From positions 1-31,282 of IMG/VR virus record IMGVR_UViG_3300031974_000143: a DNA stretch of 31,282 nucleotides. One strand, 5' to 3'. The position numbers and the translations under genes were made by a program. The notes beneath the pieces are model-generated. The model was given only the letters and a program-made list of their open reading frames with translations. It did not search any database and had not been told where the DNA came from. Positions within the stretch are counted from its first letter, which is position 1. The number at the start of each line of letters is the position of its first letter. Shown piece after piece: positions 3,243-31,264 of the stretch. The stretch is from a virus.

Positions 3243-4201
3243 TTGGAACTCAATCACCAATGCAGGGTGCTTTTGCAAGAGCGCAACAGTACCAAACACA
3301 AGCAGCAGATGCGTATGGTAGATTAGCTAGTTTTTCTCCAGAAGCGATGGAAGCTGCCAGATTAGGAGAGGCGCAACAAATGCAGGGCGTTGGTGCGGTT
3401 CAAGGAGCACAAGCCCCTAGTCAAATACAAGTTGGTCAATTAGCAACAACAAACTTGCAGCCGTATATGTCACCCTACCAACAGCAAGTTATAGAAGCTG
3501 GGCAAGCAGACATTGAACGTCAGCGTCAATTGGCTTCTCAAAACTTAGCCGCACAAGCACAACGTGCAAGAGCATTTGGTGGATCACGCCAAGCAGTGCA
3601 AGAAGGTGTATTGGCTGGTGAAGCATTACGTCAAGCTGGAGCATTATCTGCACAGCAAAGGCAACAGGCATTTGAAACGGCCCTTCGATCTGGGCAATTT
3701 GATATTGGACAAACACAACAAGCAAGAACAATGGCTTCTCAGCAGCAATTTCAAGCACAACAATTAGCGCAACAAGCGCGTGAGGCCGCCGCGGCACGTG
3801 AGCAAGCGGCAAGGGCTGGAAATATGCAAGCGGCTAATCAGTTTGCGCTACAACAAGCACAACTTGAACAGGCTGCTAATCAAGCAACCTTTGGTGGGCA
3901 ATTTCAAGCTGCTGGAATACAACAGGCAGCGGCTGGTGGTTTAGGCCGTTTAGGCAGTCAAGTATTTGGTCAAGGTATGCAAGGGCTACAAATGCAGCAA
4001 AGAGCCGCTGAAAGAGCGCAGCGACAACAGCAAGCAATGTTAGATGCCGCAAGAGGACAAACAGCCACAAATTTAGGATATGGGCCACAAGCATTGCAAA
4101 CAGGCACTGGTATTTTAGGTGGCCTGCCAACAGCGCAACAACAAACTGGTGGCACTCCTGGGCTATTTGGTGTTTTAGGAAGTTTAGGCGGATTTTTTTA
4201 A
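3239..4201 (+). CDS. Gln/Ala-rich internal virion (ejection-type) protein (320 aa)
   Basis: The protein is dominated by Gln and Ala with long predicted helical or coiled-coil stretches. It contains the phrases LQPYMSPYQQQVIEAGQADI and AQRARAFGGSRQAVQEGVL, which recur in internal virion proteins of marine podoviruses. The C-terminus becomes Gly-rich (GTPGLFGVLGSLGGFF). Helical Gln/Ala-rich proteins next to the portal are typical of podoviral ejection proteins, which enter the cell with the DNA and build a conduit across the envelope. The gene overlaps its upstream neighbour by four bases and is followed by two more proteins of similar location and style. No enzymatic motif is visible. Confidence 0.55.
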   Translation: MIGTQSPMQGAFARAQQYQTQAADAYGRLASFSPEAMEAARLGEAQQMQGVGAVQGAQAPSQIQVGQLATTNLQPYMSPYQQQVIEAGQADIERQRQLASQNLAAQAQRARAFGGSRQAVQEGVLAGEALRQAGALSAQQRQQAFETALRSGQFDIGQTQQARTMASQQQFQAQQLAQQAREAAAAREQAARAGNMQAANQFALQQAQLEQAANQATFGGQFQAAGIQQAAAGGLGRLGSQVFGQGMQGLQMQQRAAERAQRQQQAMLDAARGQTATNLGYGPQALQTGTGILGGLPTAQQQTGGTPGLFGVLGSLGGFF

Positions 4202-19694: not shown

Positions 19695-19754
19695 ACATTG
19701 TGTGCATAATGTCAAAACCAATGAAATATGCAAGGTCTTTATAAACGATCTTGC
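19695..19754 (+). promoter_or_regulatory. Structured leader upstream of the replication gene
   Basis: The 111-base gap between regulator and initiator genes holds two further inverted repeats: ACATT/AATGT (19695-19699 with 19708-19712), and a longer imperfect one, GCAAGGTC/GATCTTGC (19730-19737 with 19747-19754, one G-T pair). The second ends 21 bases before the ATG, just upstream of AAAAGGG. These could be operator sites or RNA hairpins tuning initiator translation. The repeats are seen directly; the role is inferred. Confidence 0.4.
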
Positions 19755-19775
19755 CCAACAAGAAAAGGGTTAAAA

Positions 19776-20489
19776 ATGTCAAATTTAGTTAGTAACCTAG
19801 TACAAACAAAAAAAGTAGGTTCTAATACTCAAAAATCTATTCTGATGTACATGGCAGACAAGGCTAGTGATGATGGTAGTGGTATATGGGTTAGCAAAAA
19901 GAATATGGCTGCTGATTTGGAAATGGCTATTAGAACGCTGCAAACAAATATTAGAGACATGGTTAGTTCTGGTATAATTTCTGAAGCAGGGCAGAAAAAA
20001 CATAAAAACGGCTACACTGTAGATTATACAATCAACCTGGAACGTATCGGAACACTACAGAACACTAGGGAACACCATGCAACACCTGCACCCCTGCATC
20101 AGATGCACCCCTACCCACGCAGCACCTGCACCCCTACCCCTGCACCAGATGCACCCAAACCATTAATAGAACCATCCATTGAACCAAATAATATTAAAAA
20201 TATTTTATCTCATTGGGTAATAGAAGATAATGCAGCAGAAAGTTTTATTAAATATCGTAAGCAGATTAAGAAACCTTTAACTGTAACAGCAGCGAAAAGA
20301 TTAGCAGAAAAATTAAGATTTATTTTTATAGCCGATGGTAGTCCAGAAGATGCTTTGGCAATGGCAGAGGAAAAAGGATGGCAATCTATAGAACCTGATT
20401 GGTATTTTGGTAGTTTGTTTGGCAAAGATAGTGTAGAGTATAAACAGGCGATGGGTAAAATTCGTGAAGCAATAAAAGAAATAAATTAA
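19776..20489 (+). CDS. Replication-initiator-like protein (lambda O/DnaD-type organisation, 237 aa)
   Basis: The start is ATG 19776 (MSNLVSNLVQTKKVG), preceded by AAAAGGG. Residues of about 1 to 90 form a winged-helix domain of the HTH_36/O type: SNTQKSILMYMADKASDDGS, IWVSKKNMAADLEMAIRTLQ and NIRDMVSSGIISEAG with a wing at KHKNGYTVDY. A Pro/His/Thr-rich linker (about 100-135) is encoded by the GC-rich repeats described at 20050-20209. The C-terminal domain (SHWVIEDNAAESFIKYRKQI and AMAEEKGWQSIEPDWYFGSL) resembles the helical tail of phage replication proteins. It would bind the repeats and recruit a helicase loader or host helicase. No polymerase or helicase gene is present, which agrees with this model. 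Confidence 0.7.
   Translation: MSNLVSNLVQTKKVGSNTQKSILMYMADKASDDGSGIWVSKKNMAADLEMAIRTLQTNIRDMVSSGIISEAGQKKHKNGYTVDYTINLERIGTLQNTREHHATPAPLHQMHPYPRSTCTPTPAPDAPKPLIEPSIEPNNIKNILSHWVIEDNAAESFIKYRKQIKKPLTVTAAKRLAEKLRFIFIADGSPEDALAMAEEKGWQSIEPDWYFGSLFGKDSVEYKQAMGKIREAIKEIN
20050..20209 (+). other. Putative replication origin inside the initiator gene (iterons plus AT-rich tract)
   Basis: Four tandem 10-base units start at 20050, 20060, 20070 and 20080 (GAACACTACA, GAACACTAGG, GAACACCATG, CAACACCTGC). They run into longer GC-rich repeats: CACCTGCACCCCT at 20083 and 20123, GCACCCCTACCC at 20105 and 20128, and TGCAYCAGATGCACCC at 20095 and 20141. About 30 bases after the last repeat the sequence turns almost purely A/T (20187-20209), a possible unwinding element. 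Repeats followed by an AT tract inside the initiator gene is the lambda O/ori layout. The repeats are seen; origin function is inferred. Confidence 0.6.
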
Positions 20490-20501: not shown

Positions 20502-20990
20502 ATGAATTATGATTATAGAATACAATTAGTAAAAAAAGAATTAGAGAATATTCTTAGCAGCTATGCAGTGCCAGTACACATTAGGAATGATGAAGATGCA
20601 AAGCAAAATGAAATCAAAATTATTGCTAAAGCAGTAAATCAAATATTTCCATCAGATAGCACTAGGGAAGTTATAGAGGGTGCTTTTAGTCGCGCAGAGC
20701 TTAAAATTAAAGCTGCACATATGTCTAGAACGTGGCCTAAAGGCGCAGATATAGTTACTGCTATAAAACATAGTATAGCAACGGCTGGTGACCTTCCTAG
20801 TGTATCACCTAACTGGCATCCAGATCCAAAAATAATTAATGCACAGCGAATAAAAAAAGGTGAACCTGTTGGTGAGTTTTATATTCATGGCAAGATGGCA
20901 GATGAATTAGTACGTGATGGTTTAGTAACAGAGCATGATCTACAGCCTTACAAGGAATACTTAGCCGTAGAAAAAATAGATAGAATATGA
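20502..20990 (+). CDS. Replication-operon partner protein, possible helicase loader (162 aa)
   Basis: The gene follows the initiator by 12 bases and has AAAAGGTACA before its ATG. The N-terminal half is helical (YDYRIQLVKKELENILSSYA and EIKIIAKAVNQIFPSDSTRE). The second half contains AAHMSRTWPKGADIVTAIKH, a phrase seen in small phage replication-region proteins, and a compact end (GEFYIHGKMADELVRDGLV). No Walker motif is visible, so it is not a DnaC-type ATPase. Place after an O-like gene suggests an analogue of lambda P that recruits host DnaB, but sequence alone does not show this. Confidence 0.5.
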   Translation: MNYDYRIQLVKKELENILSSYAVPVHIRNDEDAKQNEIKIIAKAVNQIFPSDSTREVIEGAFSRAELKIKAAHMSRTWPKGADIVTAIKHSIATAGDLPSVSPNWHPDPKIINAQRIKKGEPVGEFYIHGKMADELVRDGLVTEHDLQPYKEYLAVEKIDRI

Positions 20991-21005
20991 TATTTATGTT
21001 ATACT
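20977..21005 (+). promoter_or_regulatory. Extended -10 promoter-like element overlapping the end of the replication operon
   Basis: TGTTATACT (20997-21005) is an extended -10 (TGn plus TATACT). TAGATA (20977-20982) lies 17 bases upstream as a four-of-six -35. The predicted start is near 21012. Only about 85 bases follow before a strong terminator, so the product would be a short RNA. Confidence 0.45.
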
Positions 21006-21006
21006 G

Positions 21007-21042
21007 ACATTGGGGTGATATGCTCCATACTCCTCCCAATGT
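21007..21042. repeat. Inverted repeat between the promoter-like element and the terminator
   Basis: ACATTGGG (21007-21014) and CCCAATGT (21035-21042) are perfectly complementary and 20 bases apart. In a read-through mRNA they would form an eight-pair stem with a loop rich in CTCC. If transcription starts near 21012, only the GGGG part of the stem would be in the RNA, so the repeat might instead work as DNA operator. Confidence 0.5.
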
Positions 21043-21099
21043 GGGGTTTGCCTCAACTAGCCCTAGTGTTGAACTGCTCCGCTAGGGCTTTTCTTTTTC
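21012..21099 (+). ncRNA. Putative short phage RNA with own promoter and terminator
   Basis: This segment of about 88 bases lies between the extended -10 at 20997-21005 and the rho-independent terminator at 21059-21099, and has no open reading frame with a ribosome site. It carries several CTCC/CTCCTCCC motifs complementary to Shine-Dalgarno sequences (GCTCC at 21022, ACTCCTCCC at 21029-21037, GCTCC at 21076). Such exposed anti-SD motifs are known in alphaproteobacterial small RNAs. It may be a regulatory sRNA, or simply the 3' end of the replication operon transcript. The call is tentative. Confidence 0.35.
21059..21099 (+). terminator. Rho-independent terminator after the replication operon
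   Basis: AGCCCTAG (21059-21066) pairs with CTAGGGCT (21082-21089) around a 15-base loop, followed immediately by TTTTCTTTTTC on the + strand. This is the most classic terminator in the window. It separates the replication operon from the methyltransferase, packaging and tail operon. Confidence 0.85.
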
Positions 21100-21116
21100 T
21101 AAATATAGAATATAAT
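21089..21116 (+). promoter_or_regulatory. Promoter for the methyltransferase-packaging operon
   Basis: A perfect TATAAT -10 lies at 21111-21116; the -35 is poor (TTTTCT at 21089-21094, 16 bases upstream, inside the terminator U-tract). The predicted start is about 21123, giving a 30-base leader to the gene at 21153. The position right behind a strong terminator supports independent initiation, perhaps with an activator because the -35 is weak. Confidence 0.45.
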
Positions 21117-21152
21117 ACCATATATAGACGCACCCAGTTATGGACGGACTAA

Positions 21153-22427
21153 ATGAAAAAAACTTTAACTTGGCCAGCTGATAAAATAGAGCGAAAAAAA
21201 GTAAAAAATTTAATACCTTACGCACGAAACAGCAGGACTCACAGTGAAGAACAAATATCACAAATTTCAGCAAGTATTAATGAATGGGGTTTTACTAATC
21301 CTATTTTGATAGACGTTAATAATGAAATTATAGCTGGGCATGGGCGTTTACTTGCTGCGCAAAAGCTAGGTTTAAACGAAGTTCCATGTATAACGGCTGT
21401 TGGTTGGTCGGACGCTCAAAAGAAAGCCTATGTCATAGCAGATAACAAACTAGCCCTAAACGCAGGGTGGGATAACGATATGTTGTCCGTTGAGTTTGCC
21501 GAACTAAAAGATATGGACTTTGATCTTGGCCTCACAGGTTTTGACGCGGACGAATTGGCGAAGCTGCTACATGAGCCAGAGAAAGACGGCTTGACCGACG
21601 AGGACGATGTTCCAGATGCACCAGAACAACCTGTTACGGTAGAGGGTGATGTTTGGATATTGGGCAACCACAGACTGATGTGCGGCGATAGCACGAATTT
21701 TGATGCTGTAGATAAACTATTAGAAAATAAAAAAGCTAATATGTGCTTCACTGATCCACCGTATCTTATGGACTTTACTGGCGGAATACACGCGGACGGT
21801 TCTAAATCGTTTAACGCTACCCACGGCGGAATTAAAAACGATAAGATGTCAAAGAAAGACGGCGAGGCATTTTTAGACGCAATCAATACCACCATAAAAA
21901 CTTATGTGGACGGTGCGTTTTATATTACTTTCTATCGCCTGGGGATAGATGGATATTACGCAAGTTTAGAACGTGTTGGGTTAAAATGCCGTTCATTAGT
22001 TATATGGGATAAAGGTAATCATACTCTAAGTAATAGTGATTATATGAGTATGTATGAACCTATTTTTTACGGCTGGGTTAATAATCATAAATTTTACGGC
22101 GGTAAAAACGGCATGGATATTTGGCGTATAGATCGCACAAAGAAAAACGATCTACACCCAACTATGAAACCAGTAGAGTTATGCTTAAAAGCCATAAAAG
22201 ATGGCTCTCAGGTAAATGGGTTAGTTTTAGATTTATTTGGCGGTTCAGGTTCTACGTTAATAGCGTGTGAAAAAATAGACCGTGAATGCCGTGTAATGGA
22301 GTTAGACGCTAAATACTGCGATGTTATAATCAAGCGTTGGCAAGACTATACTGGTAAATTAGCCGTTTTTGAGGAAACAGGACAAACTTACCATGATTTA
22401 AAGGCGGTCAGATGCAAAGCCGCGTAA
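21153..22427 (+). CDS. ParB-like domain fused to DNA methyltransferase (424 aa)
   Basis: Residues of about 13 to 100 form a ParB/sulfiredoxin-type N-domain: VKNLIPYARNSRTHSEEQIS, then ILIDVNNEIIAGHGRLLAAQ with the AGHGR nucleotide/DNA motif at 61-65. After an acidic linker, residues 160-400 form a beta-class amino-methyltransferase, with catalytic motif IV TDPPYLMD (DPPY 201-204), HPTMKPVEL at 335 and the SAM-binding motif VLDLFGGSGSTLIACE at 358-373. Motif IV before motif I defines the beta class, which methylates adenine-N6 or cytosine-N4. No restriction enzyme is encoded nearby, so it probably protects phage DNA or marks it for replication or packaging. It starts the packaging operon. Confidence 0.9.
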   Translation: MKKTLTWPADKIERKKVKNLIPYARNSRTHSEEQISQISASINEWGFTNPILIDVNNEIIAGHGRLLAAQKLGLNEVPCITAVGWSDAQKKAYVIADNKLALNAGWDNDMLSVEFAELKDMDFDLGLTGFDADELAKLLHEPEKDGLTDEDDVPDAPEQPVTVEGDVWILGNHRLMCGDSTNFDAVDKLLENKKANMCFTDPPYLMDFTGGIHADGSKSFNATHGGIKNDKMSKKDGEAFLDAINTTIKTYVDGAFYITFYRLGIDGYYASLERVGLKCRSLVIWDKGNHTLSNSDYMSMYEPIFYGWVNNHKFYGGKNGMDIWRIDRTKKNDLHPTMKPVELCLKAIKDGSQVNGLVLDLFGGSGSTLIACEKIDRECRVMELDAKYCDVIIKRWQDYTGKLAVFEETGQTYHDLKAVRCKAA

Positions 22428-28045: not shown

Positions 28046-29533
28046 ATGAAATCTTTCGGTAATATTGCAAAAGATGGTCAGGTCAGAGCAGTTGCTTCTG
28101 GTGCTTTAACTGATGGTACTCCTGTTGTTGTCAACTCTGATGGTACTGTGAGCAGTGTTAGTGAAACCACTACAACAGAAGCTCTAGGAACAGAAAGTGC
28201 TTTTAATGCACTTAATTCTGCTTTTATTACTACTGTTTTTGATAGCTCTAATAATAAACATATAATTGTTTATCGTACTAGTCCTAACATGAGATATGTA
28301 GTTGCAACGGTGGCATCAGATGGTGGTGTTTCTTTTGGTACTGATGCTGTTGCTTTATCAGGAGACCATCAACAAATCGCCTCTGCCTTTGATAGCACAA
28401 ACAATAGAATTGTTACTGTTTTTAGGAATGGTAATGACAGCAATCATGGTTATGCAATAGTCGGTTCTTTATCAGGAACTACTGTAACTTGGGGCAGTGC
28501 TACAGAATTTAATAACGCAAATAACGCTGAACTAGGTATTTCTTTTGATAGCACAGCAGGAAAAGTTATTATTACTTATAGAAATTATGGCAATAGTAGT
28601 TACGGGACTGCAATAGTTGGAACTGTAAGTGGTACAAGCATAAGTTTTGGAACACCTGTTGTTTTTAACAGTGGCACTACAGAAAAAACTAGATCTGTTC
28701 ACGATAGCATTAACAACAAAACAGTTGTTTCGTTTAGAGATGATGGTGACTCAAGTAAAGGTAAAGCTGTTGTTGGAACGGTCAGTGGAACAGATATTAG
28801 TTTTGGATCAGAGGTGGAATTTGAATCAGGTAAGATAAACCACTCTGGTATAGCGTTTGACAGTGATACTGGTAAAGTAGTTATTGCTTATAGGCAAGAC
28901 CACGAAACTTCTGGTTCTACGGACTTCAAACGAGGAACTGCTGTTGTCGGCACTGTTTCTGGCACAAGTATTAGTTTTGGTACTCCTGTTGCATTTGACA
29001 ATACAGGAGACTATGGCGAAAGCTCGCATGGTAATGTGATATATGATTCTAATGCTAAGAAAGTTCTTGTTGTTTATCCACGTACAGTAAGTGGTAGTTA
29101 TTCAAATCGTGGTTATGTGTTTCCTTTAAAAGTTTCTGGCACAACTGTTGTTGCTGATACACCGAAGGAATTTACCTCAGGTTCAGCTACAGGTTATACT
29201 TCCATATCGTTTGACAGTAATGTAAATAGAAGTCTTATAGCTTTTAAAGATAATGCTAATAGTGAATATGGAACAGCAGTTTCTTATAGACCTTCATTTA
29301 CTTCTACAACCCTCACCTCAGAAAACTACATAGGCTTTTCTGACGGTGCATACGCAGACACACAGAGTGCTGCAATAAACACAACAAACACAATCGACAG
29401 AAACCAAAGCAGCCTTACAGCAGGGCAAACATATTTTGTGCAAACGGATGGCACACTAGGATTAACAGCAGATGATCCCTCAGTAACAGCAGGAACTGCT
29501 ATATCAGCTACAGAACTAATAGTGAAAGGTTAA
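28046..29533 (+). CDS. Seven-repeat beta-propeller-like tail protein A (495 aa)
   Basis: The N-terminal 45 residues (VRAVASGALTDGTPVVVNSD) are shared with the protein at 29810. Then come seven blade-like repeats of about 50 to 60 residues, each with the order FDS...GKVVIAYR, NSSYGTAIVGTVSGTSISFG and a variable F-N/E-S segment; several repeats carry insertions (for example HETSGSTDFKRG). The last 75 residues (TSENYIGFSDGAYADTQS to ATELIVKG) form a terminal domain shared with two paralogues. Seven four-strand repeats suggest a closed propeller, a common receptor- or glycan-binding scaffold. A distal tail receptor-binding role is inferred. Confidence 0.7.
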   Translation: MKSFGNIAKDGQVRAVASGALTDGTPVVVNSDGTVSSVSETTTTEALGTESAFNALNSAFITTVFDSSNNKHIIVYRTSPNMRYVVATVASDGGVSFGTDAVALSGDHQQIASAFDSTNNRIVTVFRNGNDSNHGYAIVGSLSGTTVTWGSATEFNNANNAELGISFDSTAGKVIITYRNYGNSSYGTAIVGTVSGTSISFGTPVVFNSGTTEKTRSVHDSINNKTVVSFRDDGDSSKGKAVVGTVSGTDISFGSEVEFESGKINHSGIAFDSDTGKVVIAYRQDHETSGSTDFKRGTAVVGTVSGTSISFGTPVAFDNTGDYGESSHGNVIYDSNAKKVLVVYPRTVSGSYSNRGYVFPLKVSGTTVVADTPKEFTSGSATGYTSISFDSNVNRSLIAFKDNANSEYGTAVSYRPSFTSTTLTSENYIGFSDGAYADTQSAAINTTNTIDRNQSSLTAGQTYFVQTDGTLGLTADDPSVTAGTAISATELIVKG

Positions 29534-29809: not shown

Positions 29810-31264
29810 ATGCGTATCATTGGTAATGATCCAAGCGTACCAAGACAGGAACACGCTGTAGCTAGTGGTACGCTGACGAATGGTACTCCTGTAGTTGTGA
29901 ACTCTGATGGGACGGTGAGTGTTGTTTCTGAGACAACTGTTACTGAAGGTTTTGGTTCTTCTGTTGTATTTGAGAGTGCTACTGCCGATTTTATTTCAGG
30001 AGTTTATGACTCTAATGCTCAGAAAGTGATTTTAGCTTATAGGGATGGTGGCAACTCTAGCTACGGTACGGCTATCGTTGGAACAGTCAGTGGCACGTCT
30101 ATCAGCTTTGGCTCTCCTACTGTATTTGAGAGTGCTTATAGCACTAACATGTCAGTTATTTATGATACTAACGCTCAGAAAGTTGTTATAGCTTATACTG
30201 ATGTTGGCGGTTCTGAATACGGCACTGCTATAGTAGGAACAGTTAGTGGAACGTCTATTAGTTTTGGTTCTGCTGCTGTGTTTGAGAGTGCGAGTACCGA
30301 AGTCATTTCAGCAGCCTATGATGCTAATGCTCAGAAAGTTGTCATAGCTTATAGAGATTTTGCTAACTCTAGCAAAGGCACTGCTATAGTAGGAACAGTA
30401 TCAGGTACTTCAATTAGCTTTGGTTCTCCTGTTATATTTGAAAGTGGTTCTACCAGTTATATTTCAGCTATCTATGATGCTAGTGCTCAAAAAGTTGTTA
30501 TAGCTTATAGAGATAATGGTAACTCTTTTTACGGAACTGCTATTGTTGGTACTGTAAGCGGAACGTCTATTAGTTTTGGCACTGCCGTTGTATTTGAGAG
30601 TGCTACGGTTGAGTACATTTCAGGAGTTTATGACTCTAACGCACAAAAAGTTGTAATAGCTTATGAAGATGTTGGTAACTCTGAGTATGGTACAGCTATA
30701 GTAGGCACTGTGAGTGGTACGTCTATTAGCTTTGGTAGTGCTGTTGTGTTTGAAAGTGCTAGCTCTAATTTTATTTCAATCACTTATGACAATAATGTTC
30801 AGAAGGTTGTTATTGCGTACAGAGATGTAGGAAACAGTAACTATGGTACGCTTATTGTCGGAACAGTTAGTGGGACTTCAATTAGTTTTGGTAGTGCCTC
30901 TGTTTATGAAACTGCTAATTCAACCTATAATTCAGCAATCTATGACTCTGACTTAAACAAAGTTGTCATAGCTTACAGAGATAATGGCAACTCTAACTAC
31001 GGCACATCAATAGTATTTCAAAACGCATCTACTGAATCAAACATCACCTCCGAAAACTACATAGGCATAGCTCGTAGTGGTGCAGCAGACACAGCAGGGG
31101 CTATCATAGATACGCAAGGTGCAATAGCTGACAACCTGTCAGGATTAACATCAGGGCAAAGCTACTACGTTCAGACGGATGGCACATTAGATACAACGGC
31201 TGATGATCCTAGCGTCTTTGCAGGGACGGCTGTATCGGCAACTAAACTTATCGTGAAAGGGTAA
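29810..31264 (+). CDS. Seven-repeat beta-propeller-like tail protein B (484 aa)
   Basis: After an N-terminal region shared with protein A (SGTLTNGTPVVVNSDG), seven repeats start at 29966, 30122, 30278, 30434, 30590, 30746 and 30902. The first six are exactly 52 residues each, with the shared core IYDxNAQKVVIAYRD, GNSxYGTAIVGTVSG and TSISFG and a variable stretch after FES. The seventh runs into the shared C-terminal domain (TSENYIGIARSG to ATKLIVKG). Seven equal repeats fit a seven-bladed beta-propeller, probably a receptor- or glycan-binding appendage. The variable residues are all in the same place in each repeat. It is an inference that this place is the binding face. Confidence 0.75.
   Translation: MRIIGNDPSVPRQEHAVASGTLTNGTPVVVNSDGTVSVVSETTVTEGFGSSVVFESATADFISGVYDSNAQKVILAYRDGGNSSYGTAIVGTVSGTSISFGSPTVFESAYSTNMSVIYDTNAQKVVIAYTDVGGSEYGTAIVGTVSGTSISFGSAAVFESASTEVISAAYDANAQKVVIAYRDFANSSKGTAIVGTVSGTSISFGSPVIFESGSTSYISAIYDASAQKVVIAYRDNGNSFYGTAIVGTVSGTSISFGTAVVFESATVEYISGVYDSNAQKVVIAYEDVGNSEYGTAIVGTVSGTSISFGSAVVFESASSNFISITYDNNVQKVVIAYRDVGNSNYGTLIVGTVSGTSISFGSASVYETANSTYNSAIYDSDLNKVVIAYRDNGNSNYGTSIVFQNASTESNITSENYIGIARSGAADTAGAIIDTQGAIADNLSGLTSGQSYYVQTDGTLDTTADDPSVFAGTAVSATKLIVKG
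29966..31010 (+). repeat. Exact 156-base-period internal repeats of the propeller gene
   Basis: Six units of exactly 156 bases start at 29966, 30122, 30278, 30434, 30590 and 30746, with a seventh partial unit at 30902. There is no insertion or deletion between them. The conserved amino-acid core is encoded by different synonymous codons from unit to unit, so the repeats are old or diversified at DNA level while the protein sequence is kept. Confidence 0.85.

Follow-up and report, generated by a model that had tools for sequence, protein, structure and literature searches.

We describe a phage locus that probably encodes a trans-acting anti-Shine-Dalgarno small RNA of approximately 88 nt. The locus lies in a whole virus sequence of 31,282 bases and 39% G+C (IMG/VR record IMGVR_UViG_3300031974_000143), here called the window, meaning the entire stretch of DNA that was analyzed. 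The hypothesis is that an extended -10 box directs transcription from approximately G21012 and that a terminator stops it at approximately 21099. The product would be a 15-bp hairpin exposing the sequence CUCCUCCCAA and, after it, a terminator hairpin whose short loop again contains CUCC. By pairing in trans with GGAGG or GGGAGG Shine-Dalgarno sequences, more likely those of host mRNAs than those of the phage itself, the C-rich loop would block ribosome binding. In copies that reach the unit by read-through out of the replication operon, ACATTGGG would also be present, and it could mask the motif by pairing with CCCAATGT. The active RNA would then arise only from its own promoter.

Gene order and relatives

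The interval lies between the replication genes and the packaging genes. Upstream, an O-like replication gene (19728-20489) is followed by the last gene of the replication operon, which encodes a 162-residue protein of unassigned function (20502-20990, plus strand; stop codon 20988-20990). Downstream, the first gene is ParB/methyltransferase-like (21153-22427), and the terminase, portal, and capsid genes come after it. The isolated phages closest in terminase are Methylophilales phage Venkman and SAR11 phages (44-50% identity), and capsid matches to isolated phages reach 43% identity or less. At E 0.001, the 162-residue protein has a match in neither Pfam nor PHROG. Its AlphaFold model (pLDDT 84.7) matches no solved structure at the same threshold and revealed nothing informative. 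Homologs of this protein, 24-100% identical, stand before the RNA in relatives. Three of them found no match among 50,697 phage records, and searches of bacterial genomes found none either.

Two further features of the record deserve mention. Repeat-bearing proteins (GTAIVGTVSGTSISFG) with similar C-termini are encoded at both window ends (76-330, 28046-29533, and 29810-31264), and the genome is probably circularly permuted, with the record broken inside its repeated tail region. Among close relatives, the first gene after the shared leader (21153-22427 in the window) differs: it is methyltransferase-like in some and an MSTKEE... gene, possibly the small terminase, in others.

Relatives were gathered via neighboring proteins, yielding over 150 IMG/VR loci, some overlapping. 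Downstream of the homologous 162-residue gene, nearly all loci keep a compact RNA and a terminator, L163 being one exception; approximately 75 related loci do so in at least six divergent forms. The forms have little sequence in common and are named here after their loci: window/L120/L132, L151, L184, L190, L183/L187, L136, L031, and L032. At the equivalent place in L037 and L039, which have a different upstream gene, there are also C-rich RNA-like units. A search model derived from the window type recovers the first L136 RNA, the L184 RNA, and the L151 RNA in syntenic position, though weakly (E-values 0.006-0.06), which hints that these RNAs share descent with that of the window.

Relatives do not keep the terminator alone, the outcome that a sequence-only reading of this DNA had named as telling against a small RNA. 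Between L120 and the window, the upstream gene shares 357 of 485 positions (74%) and differs at 17 of 30 fourfold sites, and the RNA hairpin shares 45 of 49 aligned positions. Thus, by this comparison, the RNA is more strongly constrained than the adjacent gene. What that reading had proposed in outline, a compact non-coding RNA with a conserved promoter box, a terminator, and an anti-Shine-Dalgarno motif in a loop, recurs across strongly diverged relatives. Its view that the interval has no plausible reading frame also holds: one forward frame stays open over 53 codons and has no conserved start. A small protein gene in the interval was rejected on that ground and because window-type relatives break the frame by indels of 1-2 nt. 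A coding role for the L183-type RNA was likewise rejected, its open frame showing no third-position bias.

Promoter box, terminator, and the operons on either side

Six nucleotides past the stop codon of the 162-residue gene stands the extended -10 box expected after the replication operon, TGTTATACT at 20997-21005 (plus strand), of the form TG-N-TANNNT. Taken singly, such a motif is within chance (TGNTANNNT matches the window 118 times, with 110 expected), and its weight rests on conservation at this place. Specifically, a TG-N-TANNNT box upstream of the RNA is kept in the window, L120, L151, L184, L190, and L136 types, with variation at the N and the inner bases; the L183, L031, and L032 types have no strict box. 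In the window, L120, L151, and L184 types, transcription starting 5-8 nt below the -10 would begin on GGG, and in the window G21012 lies 6 nt after the -10 hexamer. From this spacing, the fold, and the terminator, we infer an RNA of approximately 88 nt at 21012-21099 (plus strand), whose start probably lies near 21012, inside an inverted repeat. An interval of 20977-21099 had been suggested earlier. A candidate non-coding RNA unit is indeed present there, but that interval begins inside the upstream gene. In the L120 group, an extra inverted repeat, AACACA-TTTT-TGTGTT (approximately 2917-2935 of L120), overlaps the extended -10 box just upstream of the RNA and is perhaps an operator.

The predicted rho-independent terminator is also present (21059-21098, plus strand). 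Its stem, AGCCCTAG/CTAGGGCT at 21059-21066/21082-21089, is lengthened by one T.G and one G-C pair, encloses a loop containing GCUCC (21076-21080), and is followed by TTTCTTTTT at 21090-21098. An automated scan missed it because of a loop limit of 8 nt. Among relatives, the stem changes sequence yet stays paired (AGCCCTAG/CTAGGGCT versus GCCCCTA/TAGGGGC). With its conserved -10 box and terminator, the unit may be a stand-alone transcript.

It is unlikely, in our estimation, that the unit is simply the structured 3' end of the replication operon, a hairpin and terminator that protect or end the mRNA and have no function in trans. The unit does come directly after the operon and end in a terminator, and the first of two RNAs in the L136 type overlaps the gene end. 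That same type (L136:810-1020) supplies evidence to the contrary. Its two RNAs stand in tandem, the second directly past the first's terminator; because this terminator is complete, the second RNA needs its own promoter, and the extended -10 is the sole -10 box between the two. Two further points argue against an operon end: an extended -10 box is conserved and suitably spaced from the RNA, and the C-rich loop is kept while stems change.

Past the terminator, the downstream operon has what looks like a separate start (21111-21152, plus strand), with a TATAAT-like box at 21111-21116 and a conserved CGCACCC-N6-GGACG at 21129-21146. This arrangement suggests that the small RNA unit ends ahead of the next operon's start. 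It bears on a second alternative, that the RNA is a late leader of the lambda 6S/StxS type. Under that scheme, transcription from a constitutive late promoter would at first stop at the terminator and yield a short RNA. An antiterminator, possibly the 162-residue protein, would later let polymerase into the late genes. The position between replication and packaging genes suits a late leader, as do the unit's own promoter box and terminator. StxS, the best-known phage precedent, is such an RNA of promoter plus terminator, extends from the late promoter to the first terminator, and itself blocks a ribosome site (PMC7873438). The separate conserved promoter-like start past the terminator argues against this scheme. 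So do relatives with two tandem RNAs or with a gene between the RNA and the late operon. The 162-residue protein has no sequence or fold match to an antiterminator, which is weak negative evidence, and a late leader leaves the conserved CCUCCC unexplained. We consider it rather improbable.

The downstream start has a feature of its own. A G[C/G]ACCC-N3-12-GGACG motif stands there and occurs in 131 of 196 records. Its position varies, ahead of the first codons in some cases and overlapping them in others, and so it is not tied to translation; it is possibly a packaging (cos/pac) site or an operator.

The junction also accommodates other insertions. In L174 (3485-4126), a small gene (MGKLRAIIVADIE...) lies between two tandem RNA units. 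L118 (approximately 3600-3810) and L119 (approximately 3600-3710) carry an extra RNA-like cassette after the terminator, with its own terminator and a near-perfect promoter (TTGACA, 17-18 nt, TATAAT/TAATAT). L149 likewise carries an insertion of its own. The junction resembles an insertion hotspot for small RNA units.

Two computed folds around a constant loop

The interval folds more stably than shuffled versions of it. The fold of 21007-21105 has an energy of -35 kcal/mol, shuffled sequences give -22.7 +/- 3.0 (z -4.1), and z ranges from -2.3 to -6.4 over the RNAs of the window and its relatives. In the RNA predicted to start at G21012, the computed structure is a 15-bp hairpin at 21012-21054 (plus strand). 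GGGGUGA/UUGCCUC pair at 21012-21018/21048-21054 and GCUCCAUA/UGUGGGGU at 21022-21029/21040-21047. The apical loop (21030-21039, plus strand) is the 10-nt CUCCUCCCAA, the candidate anti-Shine-Dalgarno seed by computed unpaired probability and conservation, and it lies wholly inside the hairpin loop.

As had been noted from the sequence, the region contains a perfect inverted repeat: ACATTGGG at 21007-21014 can form 8 bp with CCCAATGT at 21035-21042 (both plus strand). This repeat is probably not the active fold: it spans the expected start, and its formation would conceal the motif. Specifically, the 3' arm can pair with 21007-21014 only in transcripts started upstream. In a computed transcript from 21007, the inverted repeat forms and the C-rich motif is paired. 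The unpaired probability of CUCCUCCCAA is 0.8-1.0 in the short transcript and 0.1-0.3 for most of the loop in the long one. The energies are close: the long RNA folds at -35.0 kcal/mol, and a start 3 nt later gives -33.5 and already the open fold. The notion is that the repeat would be a device that silences the RNA within read-through transcripts. A classical pseudoknot between the apical loop and the 3' flank was rejected as sterically unfit with the outer stem closed. The same pairing is a plain hairpin without the 5' arm, and we therefore adopted the two-state reading over the pseudoknot.

Both folds recur among relatives. Applied to nine distinct relatives, RNAalifold returned the open hairpin unaided, and 99% of cells are paired in it, compared with 35-56% when it is slid. 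A C-G to U-A pair exchange occurs in four of the nine window-type sequences, which may reflect merely one or two events. Short transcripts of the window, L120, L151, and L184 types have differing stems and carry the motif in the loop. The arms of the closed fold are present with other sequence in L151, L154, and L184; one outer-arm pair, lying before the start, changes from T-A to C-G between L151 and L154. L190 favors the closed fold. In the L183/L187 type, five pairs show double changes around an invariant loop. Three pairs covary in the L136 type, in which CTCCCTCCCTG is invariant in 14 sequences. These RNA groups share ancestry, and the counts are therefore not independent. Covariance model R1 scores the window RNA at 108.9 bits, as expected of a sequence that was part of its training set.

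These patterns also speak to the idea that the inverted repeat is a DNA element, such as a repressor operator, an origin, or a packaging site. Perfect 8-bp arms at the start site, packaging genes next in order, and the second conserved motif at 21129-21146 would fit such an element. G.U pairs and fold-specific compensations are at odds with it, as are relatives' hairpins that differ in layout and the presence of terminators; we regard a DNA element as highly improbable.

The C-rich loop, its candidate targets, and comparable RNAs

The CTCC and CUCCUCCC motifs reported earlier are present: CTCCTCCC lies at 21030-21037, and other CTCC copies lie at 21023-21026 and 21077-21080. CCTCCC (21032-21037) occurs once in the 31-kb window on either strand, with 4.2 copies expected. 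Of 18 representative intergenic regions, 17 carry it on the sense strand, and it occurs at five sites, both strands counted, in 124 kb of flanks of the 18 loci; these are relatives, so a formal probability is not meaningful. L032 has CUCCC and no CCUCCC. The motif's surroundings differ: it lies in a hairpin loop between CAAAC/GTTTG or CGAAC/GTTCG, in the large loop of a three-way junction (L136 type), or in the terminator loop (L031). Thus, the C-rich motif is constant while stems change, several of them by compensatory substitutions.

The predicted transcript presents an unpaired complement of the Shine-Dalgarno core (CUCCUCCCAA) in a loop, as expected of an anti-Shine-Dalgarno small RNA. For single RNAs, accessibility of the motif is modestly above chance relative to dinucleotide shuffles (5-20 per 100 for most, 78 for L032, and 53 for L190), and base composition explains part of it. 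Conservation therefore carries the argument.

Silencing of phage mRNAs in general, also put forward earlier, found no support here. Mean loop pairing with the 52 start regions of the phage was no better than that of shuffled loops (129 of 200 as good). The best single phage candidates are ORFs 29810 (-15.3 kcal/mol), 11836 (-13.2), 15367 (-12.2), 3239 (-11.4), and 11627 (-10.8). Because phage start regions are not favored, host mRNAs are the likelier targets. Conserved exposed loops that have no clear phage targets could alternatively belong to a decoy for something besides a ribosome site, for example, a sponge of host RNAs or a binder of a host protein. We deem a decoy very unlikely: the motif is the exact complement of the Shine-Dalgarno core, and no protein-binding signature was recognized.

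The anti-Shine-Dalgarno RNA that we favor has counterparts among bacterial RNAs. The alpha-r14 RNAs of Rhizobiales, including NfeR1 and SmelA075, have ultraconserved CCUCCUCCC loops on variable stems, and NfeR1 is proven to silence by pairing at the mRNA start region (PMC10746234, PMC3927594). The predicted window RNA is similarly a short intergenic RNA with an anti-Shine-Dalgarno hairpin loop, constant on variable stems. Unlike the alpha-r14 RNAs, which are chromosomal and stress-regulated and have three equal hairpins, each with an unpaired CCUCCUCCC, it is phage-borne, with one main C-rich CUCCUCCC hairpin, a terminator loop bearing GCUCC, and an alternative closed fold. The alphaproteobacterial likeness drawn earlier is only an analogy. 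C-rich loops are also found in the CcsR/cuckoo RNAs of alphaproteobacteria. Like these RNAs, which frequently stand in tandem, the window RNA ends in a terminator, and L136-type relatives likewise have tandem RNAs. RNase E processing releases CcsR RNAs from an operon that also contains a gene for a DUF1127 protein (PMC10253847). Unlike in that arrangement, no DUF1127 gene was seen at the phage locus.

StxS and lambda 6S resemble the window RNA as phage RNAs between early and late genes with a promoter and a terminator. They differ in that no Q-type gene was recognized here and the next operon has its own start. To our knowledge, StxS is not based on a C-rich anti-Shine-Dalgarno loop. In RNAIII of Staphylococcus aureus, C-rich loops block ribosome sites. 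Unlike the window RNA, RNAIII is a much longer host RNA that also serves as an mRNA, and the two are unrelated by descent. Its C-rich loops are mentioned in PMC3927594.

At gathering thresholds, Rfam contains no family for the window RNA. At a permissive threshold, its only Rfam match is RF00519 (suhB/MmgR), at 20.5 bits against a gathering score of 41, and in the alignment the family's CUCCCU is not aligned with the window CUCCUCCC. An L183-type relative aligns to RF02837 (anti-hemB, Burkholderia) with CUCCUCCCUG in the family's loop, at 24.0 bits, below the gathering score of 49.5; the window RNA does not match that family. We found no report of phage-borne CCUCCUCCC-type RNAs in the open-access collection that was searched. 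The best reading by analogy is that the window RNA would act like alpha-r14/NfeR1 or CcsR while being a member of no known Rfam family.

We speculate, as a tentative and rather doubtful extension, that phages of a widespread, uncultured, mostly marine family re-tune or shut off host translation with dedicated anti-Shine-Dalgarno RNAs made at the early/late junction, and that the start-straddling repeat keeps the read-through copy inert. Phage takeover has been studied chiefly via proteins, and such an RNA would offer a conserved, protein-free block of ribosome sites. If so, abundant uncultured phages would possess a simple route to host shut-off, and the inverted repeat at the start site would allow one sequence to be silent in an mRNA and active as a small RNA.
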